Origin: Bacillus sp. THAF10
GTDB taxonomy: Bacteria > Bacillota > Bacilli > Bacillales > Bacillaceae_I
DNA length: 64,000 nucleotides
Assembly (NCBI RefSeq): GCF_009363695.1
Contig: NZ_CP045403.1
Coordinates: 2,646,001-2,710,000 of the forward strand
Reading direction: 5' to 3'
Of this stretch, positions 12,664 through 19,767 are shown in pieces; the stretch's first letter is position 1, and every line of letters begins with the position of its first letter. The notes under the pieces were generated by a model, which was not told where the DNA came from, searched no databases, and worked only from the letters and a program-made list of their open reading frames with translations. The position numbers were made by a program, and so were the translations under genes.

Positions 12664-12667
12664 AACA

Positions 12668-12708
12668 AAAAAAGAGCATCTCCACTAAACGGGAGGATGC
12701 TCTTTTTT
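12668..12708. terminator. Bidirectional terminator between the envelope pair and the ars operon
   Basis: A stem of at least 11 bp (around 12668-12680 with 12696-12708) has A and T runs at both ends. It can end the plus-strand pair and the minus-strand arsenic operon. Confidence 0.9.
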
Positions 12709-12711
12709 TCC

Positions 12712-12999
12712 TTAACAACAATCATTATCCTTCATACCCAGTAACACAAGGCCTTTTCCTTGTGAGGTTTCCTGAACATCTAGTACAAGGTCTGTGGTCA
12801 TGCTTTCAATTTTCGAATCAATTGCCACTTTTATTTCATTTATGGTTTCCATTTTATCATCTGCTTTTGCCTCATCCAGAGACAATCCTAATTGTGGGCT
12901 TCCTCAGCCCCAGCCTGCAAAATAAACCCGTATATTGCTTGCCCCGTTTTCACGCAGGACACTATGGAGAACGTCTCTTGCTTCGTTTGATATCTTCAC
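12712..12999 (-). CDS. HesB/IscA-like protein with in-frame UGA; candidate selenoprotein
   Basis: The frame reads 95 residues if the UGA at 12904-12906 (codon 32) is decoded. The protein begins MKISNEARDVL, has RVYFAGWG just before the UGA and GSPQLGLSLDEAKADD just after it, then ends NDCC. Known HesB-like proteins have FAG.GC or FAG.GU at this site, so UGA stands exactly at the reactive Cys/Sec. No frameshift or other stop is present. The GTG start has AGGTG six to seven bases upstream, 24 bases after the phosphatase gene, as last gene of the arsenic operon. HesB-like selenoproteins are described in other bacteria. The alternative is a pseudogene by one nonsense change. Selenocysteine genes are not in the window. 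Confidence 0.75.
12867..12885 (-). promoter_or_regulatory. Candidate bacterial SECIS hairpin after the in-frame UGA
   Basis: On the minus strand a 7-bp stem (TTGTCTC with GAGGCAA, one G:U pair) closes a 5-nt loop TGGAT. Eighteen bases separate the UGA from the stem and 25 from the loop, and the loop has G at its second position. These agree with the usual bacterial SECIS model. An alternative 5-bp hairpin (12882-12895) closer to the UGA overlaps it. Confidence 0.5.
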
Positions 13000-13023
13000 A
13001 ACGAATCACCTACCTTGTTCATG

Positions 13024-13452
13024 TTAGTGTTTTTTGTACATTTTTTGTAGCACATTTTTTAATTCAGGCTTCACGTTAATGACCGGACGAATGGAAGTTA
13101 CAAGCTGTTCTGCCTCCTCCACAGTACTAGCCTTCCCTGAGTGAAGTAGCATACCCATTGCGACCGTTCCTGTTCTGTTTCGGCCACCGGAACAATGGAA
13201 ATATACTTTCTTTCCATCCTGTTTCGCCCTCATCACGTATTCAATGGCTGCTTTCACAGATTCTTCCTGTTGTTCCGCATTATCCACTATTGGCATATGG
13301 ATCCTAGGGAGATTATCTTTCACCATATCCGTTTCGGCACGCAAATCAATGATAACATCTAATCCTTCCATTGTGTGTGCTTCTTGTACTTGATTCGCAC
13401 CGCCAATATAGACATTGTCCATTAATAATTGATAGTTTTTTTCCATTGTCAT
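13024..13452 (-). CDS. Dual-specificity / tyrosine phosphatase-like protein in ars operon
   Basis: The 142-residue protein has the PTP signature HCSGGRNRTGT (about residue 95), in which Cys is the nucleophile and Arg binds the phosphate, and an upstream Asp (VDNAEQQ) that could be the general acid. The beginning (YIGGANQVQ...VIIDLRAE) is typical of small bacterial DSP-like phosphatases. The ATG at 13450-13452 is preceded by GGAG at eight bases; a GTG three codons upstream overlaps that site. It lies 12 bases after arsA and before the HesB-like gene. Its substrate is unknown; position suggests a role linked to arsenate/phosphate chemistry. Confidence 0.78.
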   Translation of the reverse strand: MTMEKNYQLLMDNVYIGGANQVQEAHTMEGLDVIIDLRAETDMVKDNLPRIHMPIVDNAEQQEESVKAAIEYVMRAKQDGKKVYFHCSGGRNRTGTVAMGMLLHSGKASTVEEAEQLVTSIRPVINVKPELKNVLQKMYKKH

Positions 13453-13464
13453 GCTTTTCACTCC

Positions 13465-15207
13465 TTAAAGAAGGTTCTCATTTTCCCACGGTAGAATTGC
13501 GCATTTATCTTTTGTACCCTTTACTCTTTGTATCCATGTTAGCTCCTGCTTTCCTCTACCGGATAATACTTTGTCTTGCGTTTTTGTCACAGCAAAACTC
13601 TGATTAATAATCCACCAACGGGGCGTTATGCCTGCACGCTCTAGATCAGCATGTAACCTTTCGGCTTCTAATACTGGTGTTGCCTCAGGTAAAGTAACAA
13701 TTAAGACCGCTGTTTCTTTCGCATTACGAAGACGAGGAAGAAGATTTTGCACTTCTTTTGAAATCTCCCCAGTAGAACGTAACAATTCCTTTTGATAGGA
13801 CTGGGCAGCGTCAAGCAACAGCAAGGTATGACCAGTTGGCGCAGTATCAATAATCACCACTTCTTCGTCTGCTTGTCCCACTATGTTTGCGAATTTCTGA
13901 AACACAGCTATTTCTTCTGTACAAGGAGAGTTTAAATCTTCCTCAAGGTATGCAAGTTGTTCCTCCTTTAACCCGTCTCCAGCTTGTTCTAAGACATGCT
14001 TTTTATACGCTTCCACTTCTTTCTTAGGATCCACTTTACTGACCGTTAACTGATGCTTTAAGGTTCTATTCTTTAATGCATGCTCCAAATGAGCAGCTGG
14101 ATCCGTTGTCGTAAGATGGACTTTCACATCTTTTTCCGCAAGTTTCATTGCTAGCTTAGCTGCAAGTGTTGTCTTTCCTACGCCACCCTTGCCCATCGTG
14201 AATACTACACGTAGATTTTGCTCCATAACATCCGCTACCACTTGATCAAAGTCAGCAAGTTCTGTAAGTAATCCCGAGATTTCCTGATTAGGATTGTCCA
14301 CTTGTATCGTTTTTCCATTTAACCAAGCCTTTAACGAGGTGGTGCCAGTTAAGGAATACGAAATATAAGGCAGGTACGTTATGGGAAAATCTTCAAAAGT
14401 TTTTCGTGCCATGCTCCATGCTTGTTGCTGTTTCTCATAAAAGCTCATGGATACTTCATCACCTTTGACCGATTCTTTCAATATACCATTAACAATCAGC
14501 TGTTGATTTTGAAGACCTATTGCTTTCAATTCTTTTGAGGCACGTGCTGCTTCCAATATTGGCGATTCATCAGGACGTGTGACAAGGAACAATTGAGTTT
14601 GTAATGGATTAGATAATGCCTTTACTGTTTGCTCGTACAATTCCTTCTTGGCTCCAAGTCCTGAAAGTGGTCCTAAGCAAGAAGCGCCATGCGTGCTTTC
14701 TTCCAAAAAATTATTCCATGCGCTCGGTAAAGAAAGCAGTCTAAGTGTATGTCCAGTTGGAGCCGTATCAAATATAATCACGTCAAATTGTTCTGTTATT
14801 TCTTTTTCCGTTAGTAACGTTGAAAATTGGTCAAAGGCAGCAATTTCGACCGAACAGGCACCAGATAGCTGTTCCTCCATAGTCGCTAATACCGATTCAG
14901 GAAGTTTACCCTTATAAGGACCAATTACTTTTTCCCTGTAGTCTCTTGCCGCCTCGTCAGGATCAAGATTACATGCAAATAGTCCTTTTACACCTGGCAC
15001 CTCGGCGATTTCATTCGTCAATTCCGTTTCAAACACATCCTGCAGGTTAGAAGCAGGGTCTGTGCTCACTATAAGTACTCTTTTTCCTTCGTTTGCAAGA
15101 ACAATAGAAGTGGCACACGCAGTGGAAGTTTTTCCTACTCCACCTTTTCCTGTAAAGAAGAGATAAGGTGTTTGTATATGTTTTAATGGTTGGAATATTG
15201 GGAGCAT
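13465..15207 (-). CDS. arsA: Arsenical pump-driving ATPase ArsA
   Basis: ArsA energises arsenite export through ArsB. The 580-residue protein has two homologous halves, each with a deviant Walker A motif (GKGGVGKTS near residue 20 and GKGGVGKTT near 338) and the DTAPTGHTLRLL/LLLL signature. The three metalloid-binding cysteines are present in LSGACSVEIA, GASCLGPL and NSPCTEEIA. Length is normal for a bacterial two-domain ArsA. The ATG has an AGGAGGT site, and arsD lies 13 bases upstream. No defect seen. Confidence 0.95.
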   Translation of the reverse strand: MLPIFQPLKHIQTPYLFFTGKGGVGKTSTACATSIVLANEGKRVLIVSTDPASNLQDVFETELTNEIAEVPGVKGLFACNLDPDEAARDYREKVIGPYKGKLPESVLATMEEQLSGACSVEIAAFDQFSTLLTEKEITEQFDVIIFDTAPTGHTLRLLSLPSAWNNFLEESTHGASCLGPLSGLGAKKELYEQTVKALSNPLQTQLFLVTRPDESPILEAARASKELKAIGLQNQQLIVNGILKESVKGDEVSMSFYEKQQQAWSMARKTFEDFPITYLPYISYSLTGTTSLKAWLNGKTIQVDNPNQEISGLLTELADFDQVVADVMEQNLRVVFTMGKGGVGKTTLAAKLAMKLAEKDVKVHLTTTDPAAHLEHALKNRTLKHQLTVSKVDPKKEVEAYKKHVLEQAGDGLKEEQLAYLEEDLNSPCTEEIAVFQKFANIVGQADEEVVIIDTAPTGHTLLLLDAAQSYQKELLRSTGEISKEVQNLLPRLRNAKETAVLIVTLPEATPVLEAERLHADLERAGITPRWWIINQSFAVTKTQDKVLSGRGKQELTWIQRVKGTKDKCAILPWENENLL

Positions 15208-15220
15208 AAAGCCCGACCTC

Positions 15221-15589
15221 CTAGTTTATTGTGTTTAACGTGATATTCAGCTTTTTCTTCGGTTTTTCATGCGTAAGCTCTTCTTCTTTTAACCCGGTCC
15301 ATTCTGCAAACTCATTATTTGTGGGATACTCTGCTATTTTTTTCACCTCACCATCACAAAGTACGATTGGAAGACAATCTGGCCCTTTTTCCATTAAGAG
15401 ATTATTCACCTTTTCGTAAGTGACAAACGGCTCTGGTTCAGCTCCTAAATTATAGCGTGTAATCTCCAAGCCTTTTTGTTGAATGGTAAAGATAGCACTT
15501 GCCACTCTTGTTAATTCCGGATCTACGCTAGGTCCACACACACCTGTTGCACAACACATTGCAGGATCAAAAATTTCAATTTTTGCCAT
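15221..15589 (-). CDS. arsD: Arsenical metallochaperone ArsD
   Basis: ArsD hands As(III) to ArsA and can act as a weak repressor. The 122-residue protein begins IEIFDPAMCCATGVCG, with the conserved Cys12, Cys13 and Cys18 that bind arsenite. The C-terminal vicinal cysteine pairs of plasmid R773 ArsD are absent, as in many Firmicute versions. GGAGA precedes the ATG. An arsC-arsD intergenic terminator-like hairpin (15619-15642) precedes the gene. Confidence 0.93.
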   Translation of the reverse strand: MAKIEIFDPAMCCATGVCGPSVDPELTRVASAIFTIQQKGLEITRYNLGAEPEPFVTYEKVNNLLMEKGPDCLPIVLCDGEVKKIAEYPTNNEFAEWTGLKEEELTHEKPKKKLNITLNTIN

Positions 15590-15618: not shown

Positions 15619-15642
15619 AGCCGAGTTATGATGCACTCGGCT
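15619..15642 (-). terminator. Intercistronic terminator-like hairpin between arsC and arsD
   Basis: An 8-bp perfect stem (15619-15626 with 15635-15642) with an 8-nt loop is followed by five T residues on the minus strand. It divides the operon into arsRBC and arsDA plus the tail genes and would let only part of the transcripts continue. Confidence 0.7.
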
Positions 15643-15649
15643 ATTTTTA

Positions 15650-16069
15650 TTATTTTCCAGTCTCTGCAAACATCTTAATTCTGTCGCCGATTTCATCACG
15701 CACGCGTTGGAAGAACTTCCATTTCTCTTCTTCTGTTCCTTCTGCTTTTGCTGGATCATCAAACCCCCAATGTACTCTCTCTTTATTTGGAGGAGTAGCT
15801 GGACAAACATCTGCAGCATGACCGCAAAGAGTTACGACTAGATCCGCTTTTTTCAAAATTTCTGCATCAATCATGTCAGAAGTTTGGTTCGTGATGTCTA
15901 CATCCACTTCATTCATAGCTTTTACTGCATTTGGGTTTACTCCGTGTGCTTCAATTCCTGCTGAATACACATCCCATTCGTCACTTAAATATTTTTTCCC
16001 CCAGCCTTCTGCCATTTGGCTACGGCAGGAATTCCCCGTGCATAAGAAATAAATTGTTTTTTTAGCCAT
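15650..16069 (-). CDS. arsC: Arsenate reductase, thioredoxin-coupled
   Basis: The protein reduces As(V) to As(III). It has the low-molecular-weight phosphatase loop [14 protein letters not shown] (nucleophile Cys about residue 10, Arg16) and the second redox pair in [15 protein letters not shown] (about residues 82 and 89), as in S. aureus pI258 and B. subtilis ArsC, which use thioredoxin. Length 139 is exact for the family. A GGAG site precedes the ATG. It lies between arsB and arsD in the operon. Confidence 0.95.
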
Positions 16070-16105: not shown

Positions 16106-17404
16106 TTAACCTATTATTAAAAGCCAGAAATACAGGCCTAATAGCGTAATGAATAGGGTGGGAATAGTAAGAATGATACCAACCTTAAAATAGTATCCCC
16201 AACTTATTTTTACACCTTTAAGACTTAATACATGTAACCATAGTAGTGTAGCTAGAGATCCTATAGGTGTAATTTTTGGACCAAGGTCTGAACCTATGAC
16301 ATTTGCATAAATCAAAGCTTCGCGAAGTGTTCCGGAAGTAGCAGTATCTTTAATTGCCAGTGCATCAATCATGACTGTTGGCATATTATTCATGAAGGAC
16401 GACAGAACTGCGGCTATGAATCCCATGGATATGGTTGCCACAAAGAGTCCTTCATCTGCTGCCATTTGGATGACATCTGTTAATAGATTTGTCAAACCTA
16501 CATTTCGCAGGCCATACACTACCACGTACATTCCAATGGAGAAGAATACGATTGCCCATGGTGCCCCTTTTAGAATCTGTTTCGTATGAATAGCCGGGCT
16601 TTTTCTGCTTATTAAAAGAAAGATAACAGCAACAGAAGCCGCAATGAACGAAACAGGAATGCCCGCAAATTCACTGGCAAAATATCCTACAAGAAGAACG
16701 GCAAGTACAACCCATGATAGCTTGAACAGCTTTCCATCTTTTATCGCTTCACCAGGTTTTTTTAATACTGACAAATCATAATTTTCCGGGATGCTCTTAC
16801 GGAAAAACAAGTAAAGCACCACAATACTGGCACCTAGTGCAAAGAAGTTCGGAATAATCATCCTTGATGCATATTCAACAAACCCGATGTCAAAAAAGTC
16901 TGCAGAAACGATGTTCACCAAGTTACTTACTACTAATGGTAACGACGTGGTGTCAGCGATAAATCCACTTGCCATGATGAATGGCAAAATCATTTTTTCT
17001 TTGAACTGTAAATTCCTCACCATGGCAAGTACGATTGGTGTCAAGATAAGTGCCGCTCCATCATTAGCAAAGAAAGCAGCAACTACTGCTCCTAGCAGCG
17101 TAATATAAATAAACATTCTTACGCCGCTTCCCTTTGCAAAACGTGCCATGTGTAACGCTGACCATTCAAAGAATCCTACCTCATCCAAAATGAGGGATAT
17201 TATAATCAATGCCACAAACGTTAAAGTTGCATTCCACACAATGCTTGTCACATCAATAACATCCGTATAAGTAACCACTCCAAAAAGTAAGGCTAGCAGC
17301 GCTCCTCCACAAGCTGACCATCCAATTGACAATCCTTTAGGCTGCCAGATAACAAATATTAATGTAAGTAAAAAAATCACAGATGCCAAAATTATATCCA
17401 GCAA
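16106..17404 (-). CDS. arsB: Arsenite efflux membrane protein ArsB
   Basis: The 432-residue protein has about twelve hydrophobic helices and belongs to the ArsB/NhaD (ion transporter) group, not to the Acr3 type. Conserved parts include [18 protein letters not shown] and [15 protein letters not shown]. It exports arsenite and antimonite, alone using the proton gradient or with ArsA. The start is TTG at 17402-17404, with GGGGG eight bases upstream. arsR ends 12 bases upstream. Confidence 0.94.
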
Positions 17405-17416
17405 GAAAATACCCCC

Positions 17417-17758
17417 TTAACAACAAGTAATTCTAAGTCCTTTTTCCTCAAGCTCCTTTACCTTCTCATCTAGTGAAGGAACATGCATTAAAATAGCCGT
17501 AATTAATGCATAGTGTGGATGCTCTGTATTGATGGAATACATAATCCACTGCCCTTTTCGTGATTCTTTTACAAGCCCTACTTCTTTTAGCTTTTTAACA
17601 TGTTGGCTGATGGAGGGCTGACTCATTTGAAAAATCTCGACAAACTCACATACACAGCAATCATGATCTTGTAACAGCGTTAGCATAGACAATCTAGTTT
17701 TGTCACCCAAAATTTTTAATGTCAATGCCGCTTCGTCCATCTTCAATATTTGTTGCAT
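17417..17758 (-). CDS. arsR: Arsenical-responsive repressor ArsR
   Basis: This 113-residue winged-helix protein of the ArsR/SmtB family represses the operon and is released by As(III). The sensing cysteines lie at the front of the DNA-binding helices in DHDCCVCEFVEIF, followed by MSQPSISQHVKKLK as recognition helix. A further CC pair ends the protein. The ATG has AGGTAGGTG upstream. It is the first gene of the operon and lies directly after the operator repeats. Confidence 0.94.
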   Translation of the reverse strand: MQQILKMDEAALTLKILGDKTRLSMLTLLQDHDCCVCEFVEIFQMSQPSISQHVKKLKEVGLVKESRKGQWIMYSINTEHPHYALITAILMHVPSLDEKVKELEEKGLRITCC

Positions 17759-18312: not shown

Positions 18313-19767
18313 TTAATGGCCTGACGTGACAGTAAGACCTATTCTTTTAACAAGTGCTTGGCTATCATCATTCAAACCTACAATAGTTACATTCTTCCCT
18401 AGTCTTTGGTATTTCTGTACTGTTTTTGCAATTGCCGTAACAGCAGATTGATCCCACACATGAGAGTTACTGAAATCAATGACAATTTCTTTTGGATCAT
18501 GGTTATAGTCAAATAAATCTACAAAGTGACTCATCGTGCCAAAAAACATTTGTCCATTAATTTTGTAATGCATTTTTTCATCAATCAACGTCATCGTTGC
18601 TTTTATTTTGGCCATTTTCCATCCAAAGATAAGCGCACTGAGGACAACTCCAGCTGCCACACCTTTTGCAAGGTCATGAGTGTAAACGACAATGGCAACT
18701 GTTACGATCATGACAACTGCATCTGCACGTGGTGTTTTATGAAGTTCACGCAAGGACTGCCAGTCAAAAGTACCGATGGACACCATAATCATTACTCCAA
18801 CAAGCGCTGCCATCGGAATTTGAACGACAACATCTCCTAAAACCATGATTAAAAACAATAGGAATGTTCCTGCGACTAATGCAGAAAGTCTTCCTCGTCC
18901 ACCAGATTTTACGTTAATTACTGATTGCCCTATCATCGCACAACCAGCCATCCCACCGAAGAATCCAGTTACTACGTTTGCGATTCCTTGGCCCTTCATT
19001 TCGCGGTTTTTATTACTCTTTGTGTCTGTCATTTCATCAACAATCGTTGCCGTTAGTAATGACTCAAGATTACCAACAATAGCAAGTGTGAAAGCATATG
19101 GCAAAATAATCATGAACGTTTCCCAAGAAAGCTCCACCATTGGGAGATGAAATACAGGTAATGCTCTTTTAATTTCCCCCATATCTCCTACCGTATTAAG
19201 CCCATAACCTCCACCGAAAATGACGATGGCCGTAATGACGATTATGGCAAATAGTGCAGAAGGAATTGCTTTTGTAAAACGAGGAAGAATATAGATAATG
19301 GCAAGCGTTGCTGCTACAAAAGCATACATTACCCAAGTAGCTCCAACGAATTGTTCCAGCTGAGCCATAAATATTAAAATAGCTAAAGCATTAACAAAGC
19401 CAATGATGACAGCTTGAGGTAGAAAGGATAAATATTTCCCAAGCTTAAACATACCCATTAGAATTTGAATAATACCTGTAAGTACCGTTGCAGCAAAAAG
19501 ATACTCTAACCCATGATCTGCCACAAGTGTTACCATCAATAGTGCCATTGCACCTGTAGCTGCTGAAATCATTCCTGGTCTACCACCGGTAAAAGCGATG
19601 ATCACCGCAATACAAAAGGATGCGTATAGTCCAACCATCGGATCTACTCCTGCAATGATAGAAAAGGCAATTGCTTCAGGGATAAGAGCCAATGCAACGG
19701 TCATTCCTGAAAGTACGTCTCCACGTACATTCCCAAACCATTCTTGTTTTAAGTTTGCTACGTTCAT
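18313..19767 (-). CDS. SulP family anion transporter with STAS domain
   Basis: The 484-residue protein has about 11-12 membrane helices with the SulP pattern [21 protein letters not shown] at the start and a C-terminal STAS domain (from about residue 395, with [18 protein letters not shown]). Members carry sulfate, bicarbonate or other anions. The substrate cannot be told from sequence. Single gene with an AGAGGTG site before the ATG. A role in sulfate or bicarbonate uptake is equally likely. Confidence 0.88.

Follow-up and report, generated by a model that had tools for sequence, protein, structure and literature searches.

A predicted HesB-like selenoprotein gene as the final member of an arsenic-resistance operon in Bacillus sp. 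THAF10 and its relatives

Introduction

HesB-like selenoproteins were recorded in 86 organisms, according to the accessible text of a 2016 survey (PMC5029168), and the available sections of a 2026 review give UxGP as their motif (PMC13188914). The M. maripaludis member came to light through mutagenesis and 75Se labelling, and the part of that report at hand states that its function 'is not clear' (PMC11097638). Selenocysteine (Sec) is also used in arsenic metabolism, the arsenic-linked selenoproteins named in the available sections being an arsenite methyltransferase and an arsenate reductase (PMC13188914). As for arsenic-resistance (ars) operons, ars1 of Bacillus sp. CDB3 is given in the accessible descriptions as arsRYCDATorf7orf8, with genes for a HesB-like protein and a dual-specificity protein phosphatase (DSP) at its end (PMC4562236, PMC5481582), and a hairpin between its arsC and arsD is reported to lower expression of the full operon. 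Within the accessible portions of the open-access literature we found no report of a Sec-containing HesB protein in an ars operon.

Here we describe such an arrangement, predicted in a 64,000-nt stretch of the Bacillus sp. THAF10 genome (the window; contig NZ_CP045403.1, positions 2,646,001 to 2,710,000). From comparative sequence analysis we hold it very probable that a functional Sec-encoding hesB gene and an arsenic-resistance operon are joined at this locus, the gene being the last of the operon and tracking it within the genus.

Results

A HesB-like reading frame interrupted by a single UGA

The predicted hesB-like selenoprotein gene occupies 12712..12999 on the minus strand. Its frame starts with a GTG at 12999 and comprises 95 codons before the TAA that ends at 12712, open throughout except for one TGA, codon 32 (12904..12906, minus strand), the predicted Sec codon. 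A Shine-Dalgarno-like AAGGTAGGTG stands before the start on the same strand (13007..13016), and the 95-residue product, VKISNEARDVLHSVLRENGASNIRVYFAGWG-U-GSPQLGLSLDEAK...DNDCC, ends in a Cys-Cys pair. The first-pass annotation had proposed this frame with its single UGA and had described the start, ribosome site and C-terminal Cys pair as intact, all of which the sequence confirms. It had also put the UGA at the reactive Cys/Sec position of HesB proteins, and in a profile alignment codon 32 does align with the conserved HesB/IscA Cys in HI1723, AQ_1857 and IscA. The best of four NCBIfam matches of the product was TIGR01911 (HesB_rel_seleno; E 4.8e-16), at 59.1 bits (58 in a second search) and so short of its 66.35-bit cut-off; Pfam gave no family match at E 0.001. 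The UxGP motif is absent, the window protein reading UGSP, and G stands at that place of the motif in 58 of the 93 UGA loci surveyed below.

A search of 5.8 billion predicted proteins returned five matches to hesB, none of them full length and four of them 57-residue pieces from behind the UGA. Genes of this kind are thus overlooked. In two metagenome proteins (P0057, P0069) the HesB domain comes after a common junction that is met in two frames, one being an ArsA-like P-loop start; an artefact or a deletion may account for this.

Finding only pieces behind the UGA is also what a nonsense pseudogene or a sequencing error would give, and in one genome of the wider survey (G387, see below) a UGA form stands without detected SelA or full SelB and may be decaying. 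Against this, the UGA is common to 11/11 genus orthologues and to 93 loci in all, and both the hairpin described below and the protein sequence behind the UGA are conserved. For the 11 genus genes, dN/dS was 0.152 before the UGA and 0.089 after it (Nei-Gojobori, 55 pairs), that is, selection acts strongly against amino-acid change downstream of the UGA. Since all 11 genes have TGA and purifying selection after it is strong, chance or sequencing error is excluded for this codon, and on UGA conservation, hairpin and dN/dS we rejected the pseudogene and sequencing-error readings, to which we give next to no probability. Relatives with TGT or TGC in this codon and a genome devoid of sel genes had been named beforehand as signs of a nonsense pseudogene or a sequencing error; the genus orthologues all keep TGA, and sel genes are present.

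The genome encodes the machinery for Sec decoding

Judged by its genes, the genome is one that decodes selenocysteine. A tRNA-Sec with anticodon TCA (58.6 bits; gathering score 47) and genes for SelA, SelB and SelD, the set for which the first-pass annotation had proposed a search, lie within about 10 kb on the single 4.09 Mb contig. SelD, called by its AIRS domains and its UGA motif, has an in-frame UGA of its own (KAGUGCKLG), and directly before selA is a SelW-like (Rdx) gene with an in-frame UGA in CMQU (L002:8851-9089, at about 1884850 on C1); each of these two genes has a hairpin fitting the bacterial SECIS model. Counting hesB, the UGA genes of this genome therefore number three or more. 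A search of it for the formate dehydrogenase alpha subunit (TIGR01591) found none.

A SECIS-like hairpin is conserved with the UGA

A bacterial SECIS-like hairpin (12867..12885, minus strand; stem TTGTCTC/GAGGCAA, loop TGGAT) lies 25 nt after the UGA. As set out in the accessible part of its description, the bacterial SECIS model has a loop of 3-9 nt, a stem of 4-16 bp, a G within the first two loop nucleotides, a distance of 16-37 nt from the UGA and a minimum free energy of at most -7.5 kcal/mol (PMC13188914). With a 5-nt loop, a 7-bp stem, G at loop position 2 and a spacing of 25 nt, the hesB hairpin agrees with this model in form, and its energy is borderline: the bare 7-bp structure gives -7.4 kcal/mol, just outside the limit, the best fold of the 19-mer -7.5 and the 19-mer with two flanking bases per side -8.2. 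Among 2000 synonymous recodings, only 19 scored as low as -7.4.

We compared the 93 UGA genes of the order-wide survey with 52 Cys genes (the 58 non-UGA rows minus six that have no alignable Cys motif, L200, L202, L205, L212, L213 and L222), in counts that still contain the kinship among rows. The inner five pairs can form in 85/93 UGA genes and all seven stem pairs in 68/93, as against 0/52 Cys genes in both cases, and the loop reads TGGAN in every UGA gene. Codon choice follows the same division, Leu being CTG in 93/93 UGA genes versus 2 of the 31 Leu-bearing Cys genes, and Glu being GAG in 87/87 versus 4/23. At stem pair 2, G-C replaces U-A in six of the 93 UGA genes, a change on both sides of the stem. 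These hairpin and codon counts show selection on the RNA where the UGA is present.

Public annotation implies a different reading, in which the locus makes a peptide of 31 residues and, separately, a protein of 57 residues initiated at a TTG behind the UGA, and the public 57-residue proteins do start at that TTG. The same TTG, however, forms the base of the hairpin stem, the Cys homologues are single continuous proteins, and codon choices that preserve the hairpin would serve no purpose if two products were made; we therefore regard this reading as extremely improbable. The sel genes, the conservation of the UGA and a SECIS-like hairpin specific to UGA genes strongly support what the first-pass annotation had offered as a candidate selenoprotein. 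On this evidence hesB is almost certainly a functional selenoprotein gene, in which SelB and tRNA-Sec would read UGA-32 as Sec through the SECIS hairpin 25 nt downstream.

hesB ends a predicted arsenic-resistance operon

On the minus strand the gene order is arsR-arsB-arsC-arsD-arsA-DSP-hesB. The genes upstream of hesB encode the repressor ArsR (17417..17758; PF01022), the arsenite pump ArsB (16106..17404; PF02040, E 4.2e-217), the arsenate reductase ArsC, which has the low-molecular-weight phosphatase fold (15650..16069; Pfam), the arsenite metallochaperone ArsD (15221..15589; PF06953, E 1.1e-40), the arsenite pump ATPase ArsA (13465..15207; PF02374, E 7.1e-104) and the DSP (13024..13461; Pfam DSPc, E 5.4e-15). 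Only 3 nt separate arsA from the DSP gene and 24 nt the DSP gene from hesB. Directly 3' of hesB, a strong hairpin followed by a T run (12664..12712, minus strand) is the likely operon terminator; none of 200 shuffles was as stable (z -5.56). A consensus scan, which found nine terminator-like sites against 4.0 expected, also placed one such hairpin in the gap from arsC to arsD (15619..15642, minus strand). From gene spacing and terminator, the genes are predicted to form one operon. The window gave no Rfam match at gathering thresholds. Upstream of arsR and on the same strand, a frame at 18313-19767 resembles, by eye, a SulP-type anion transporter. The first-pass annotation had called hesB the last gene of arsRBCDA: its place as last gene stands, but it does not directly follow arsA, the DSP gene (13461-13024) between them having been missed.

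We surveyed 18 genomes of the family, 16 of them of the genus, which named loci (S. horikoshii and relatives) place as Sutcliffiella. The gene is present in 11 of the 16, each time with one TGA in the same codon, and the other ten genus genes are 82-88% identical to it; the two same-family genomes outside the genus have a homologue of 41-43% identity with no stop. The full operon is found in all eight named genus loci. The five genus genomes without hesB also lack ArsA (E 1e-30; one of the five is only about 80% complete), and two of these five have SelA and SelB. Since hesB-less genomes lack ArsA, in two cases despite SelA and SelB, hesB appears to follow the ars operon. Both the structure of the operon and the joint absence of hesB and ArsA support the arsenic link suggested in the first pass; any biochemical action of HesB on arsenic or thiols is one that we infer. 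It is highly probable, from gene order and distribution, that hesB closes an operon for arsenic resistance, arsRBCDA-DSP-hesB, and that the presence of the gene in the genus tracks this operon.

UGA forms and ars operons across the order

Among 397 genomes of the order, 176 have a hesB match (E 1e-8) and 180 have SelA (E 1e-60). We took 151 loci (G001 and the 150 stronger matches that were listed; 131 of the 176 matching genomes are represented) and examined about 5 kb on each side, or less at contig ends; a locus was counted as beside ars genes if a tblastn match (E 1e-5) to the window's ArsA, ArsB, ArsC or ArsD lay within about 5 kb. One row (L123) lacks a start codon, so that its first residues are unreliable. 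Of these loci 93 are UGA forms and 58 are not, and 52 of the latter have an alignable Cys at the UGA position. Cys homologues (P0010, P0012 and others) are often labelled 'adhesin' in public records, apparently a misnomer.

SelA is present in 81 of the 82 genomes for which a UGA form is listed, versus 6 of the 49 with only non-UGA forms (Fisher 7.6e-27, counting genomes and uncorrected for kinship). Reduced to phylogenetically independent pairs, of which three lie on supported branches (1.8 on average in the same direction and 0 in the opposite one), the association is not significant, three pairs being too few for a test. The single UGA genome without SelA is G387, which has an ars operon with a UGA hesB and an intact hairpin sequence (L122, G387:C15:464071-474346), and in which neither SelA (E 1e-60) nor a complete match to SelB was found; this exception could reflect transfer, a gap in the assembly or sel genes that were lost recently. 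G282, for its part, matches SelA (E 6.7e-108) without a complete match to SelB. With SelA in 180/397 genomes of the order and 62 listed UGA hesB genes off ars loci, Sec decoding seems widespread among these bacilli.

Of the 93 listed UGA genes, 31 (in 30 genomes) are ars-linked and 62 lie away from detected ars genes. At all 31 loci every detected ars gene is on the hesB strand, and at 29 hesB is the last of the detected genes; the order R-B-C-D-A-DSP-HesB occurs at 18, of which 11 are those of the genus, and six operons have no detected ArsA or ArsD. Among the non-UGA genes 37/58 are ars-linked, 29 of these 37 in genomes without SelA and eight in genomes with it, so even where Sec could serve, it is not always chosen. 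Five hesB-like loci of family f39 (L200, L202, L205, L212 and L213) stand beside arsR, arsB and arsC and have lost the active-site Cys and the C-terminal cysteines; four read GQGEGSPE, and ArsA, ArsD and the phosphatase gene were undetected there. Plasmid ars operons of Cytobacillus also hold UGA hesB copies. For the C. firmus plasmid the gene table gives the ars genes and the phosphatase gene and not hesB; for the other plasmid copy it omits further ars genes as well, and these tables, incomplete and listing no pseudogenes, are weak evidence on how hesB is annotated.

A tree of the 151 short rows has good support at only 56 of 147 inner branches, and its bootstrap did not reach stability, which makes any number for gains of the ars link approximate. 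All 11 rows from the genus fall into a single clade (100/99). Nine changes are needed on the tree for the label 'ars with UGA', at least five of them forced by well-supported branches, and five for UGA against not-UGA. The link between Sec-HesB and ars operons probably had more than one origin, or was frequently lost. At the 83 loci without detected ArsA, ArsB, ArsC or ArsD (62 UGA, 21 not), none of the 30 neighbour clusters examined is a shared functional partner, the recurrent ones being mostly lineage-bound.

Discussion

A Cys lies among the last five residues in all 93 UGA rows, and a Cys-Cys pair in 81. None of the five rows without an active-site Cys has a terminal Cys. Five other non-UGA rows (L217, L218, L220, L226 and L228) have the active-site Cys and no Cys at the terminus, so the two are not always retained together. 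On the HesB fold, Sec-32 and the C-terminal Cys-Cys would form a site that we take to occupy the place of the IscA metal-binding cysteines. As(III) favours three soft ligands, as in ArsR and ArsD, and selenolates are softer than thiolates; for these reasons an arsenite-binding carrier is our first choice of role. SelB and tRNA-Sec, directed by the SECIS hairpin, would insert Sec at UGA-32; Sec-32 and the Cys pair would make up a putative three-ligand soft site able to bind As(III); and HesB, beside ArsD, would scavenge arsenite or carry it towards ArsA/ArsB, with Sec raising affinity or speed. We put this reading forward tentatively, as one that could well prove wrong. The six ars-linked UGA operons with no detected ArsA or ArsD speak against it.

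The same selenoprotein, being related to the A-type carriers IscA and ErpA, might instead deliver or repair Fe-S clusters during arsenic stress. The fold family and the position of the key residue are consistent with such a role, the first conserved Cys position of the A-type carriers being present, and the many UGA forms off ars operons would fit a general function. The protein nevertheless scores well under the cut-offs for these carriers (26.5 versus 58.8 bits for the general family TIGR00049, 26 versus 117 for ErpA), its C-terminus has adjacent cysteines where that of IscA carries CxC, and a second HesB/IscA-family match, free of stops, exists elsewhere in the genome (C1:3293268-3293540). 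We rank an Fe-S role second and think it possible, if rather doubtful. Third comes a selenol/thiol oxidoreductase that recycles ArsC or reduces arsenicals. Sec with a terminal Cys pair would suit redox work, some of the operons include trxB, and ArsC is here of the low-molecular-weight phosphatase type, which depends on thiols; the window protein, however, has neither UxxC nor CxxU, and all of its family matches are of HesB/IscA type, which makes a redox role unlikely.

Whichever role applies, the 62/93 listed UGA genes away from detected ars genes indicate that the core function of HesB is not arsenic-specific. Returning to the arsenite carrier, a wider and more speculative scenario, which we consider doubtful on present comparisons, is that Sec-HesB was recruited several times to the ars operons of Sec-decoding bacilli, acts there as an As(III) carrier with ArsD-ArsA-ArsB, and makes arsenic tolerance depend on selenium supply. 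Selenium would then be tied to arsenic detoxification in the related bacteria that share the Sec-hesB/ars arrangement. Sec-HesB fixed in ars operons, together with Cys versions at the same position mostly in genomes without SelA (29/37), offers a route to the function of the family, and arsenite tolerance with and without selenium makes the function of a HesB-like selenoprotein testable.

The window gene resembles the described systems in different respects. With the HesB-like selenoprotein family (TIGR01911), as far as its accessible descriptions go, it shares a UGA at the HesB Cys, a small HesB-type product and a SECIS element inside the frame; it differs in scoring under the family cut-off, in having UGSP for UxGP and in standing in an ars operon. 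E. coli IscA (1r94, 1s98) and HI1723 (2apn) match over most of its length, with position 32 at the Cys of their GC-G motif; the similarity is weak (E 0.0044 to 9.8e-6), they contain no Sec, and their C-terminal cysteines are arranged differently. The selenoprotein forms of arsenite methyltransferase and arsenate reductase likewise place Sec in arsenic metabolism but, in the available accounts, are enzymes of other families. Compared by gene names and description, in available accounts of CDB3 that mention no Sec, ars1 is alike in that HesB-like and DSP genes end a long ars operon with a hairpin between arsC and arsD, and the window operon has this CDB3-type layout, in which HesB and DSP genes come after the ars genes. 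The two operons differ in the pump, ArsY in ars1 and ArsB in the window, in arsT, which ars1 has and which is missing between arsA and the DSP gene in the window, and in the relative order of HesB and DSP, with HesB first in ars1 and second in the window. Within the accessible literature, then, HesB-like selenoproteins were already known and so, separately, were HesB genes in ars operons; we found no account there that joins the two.
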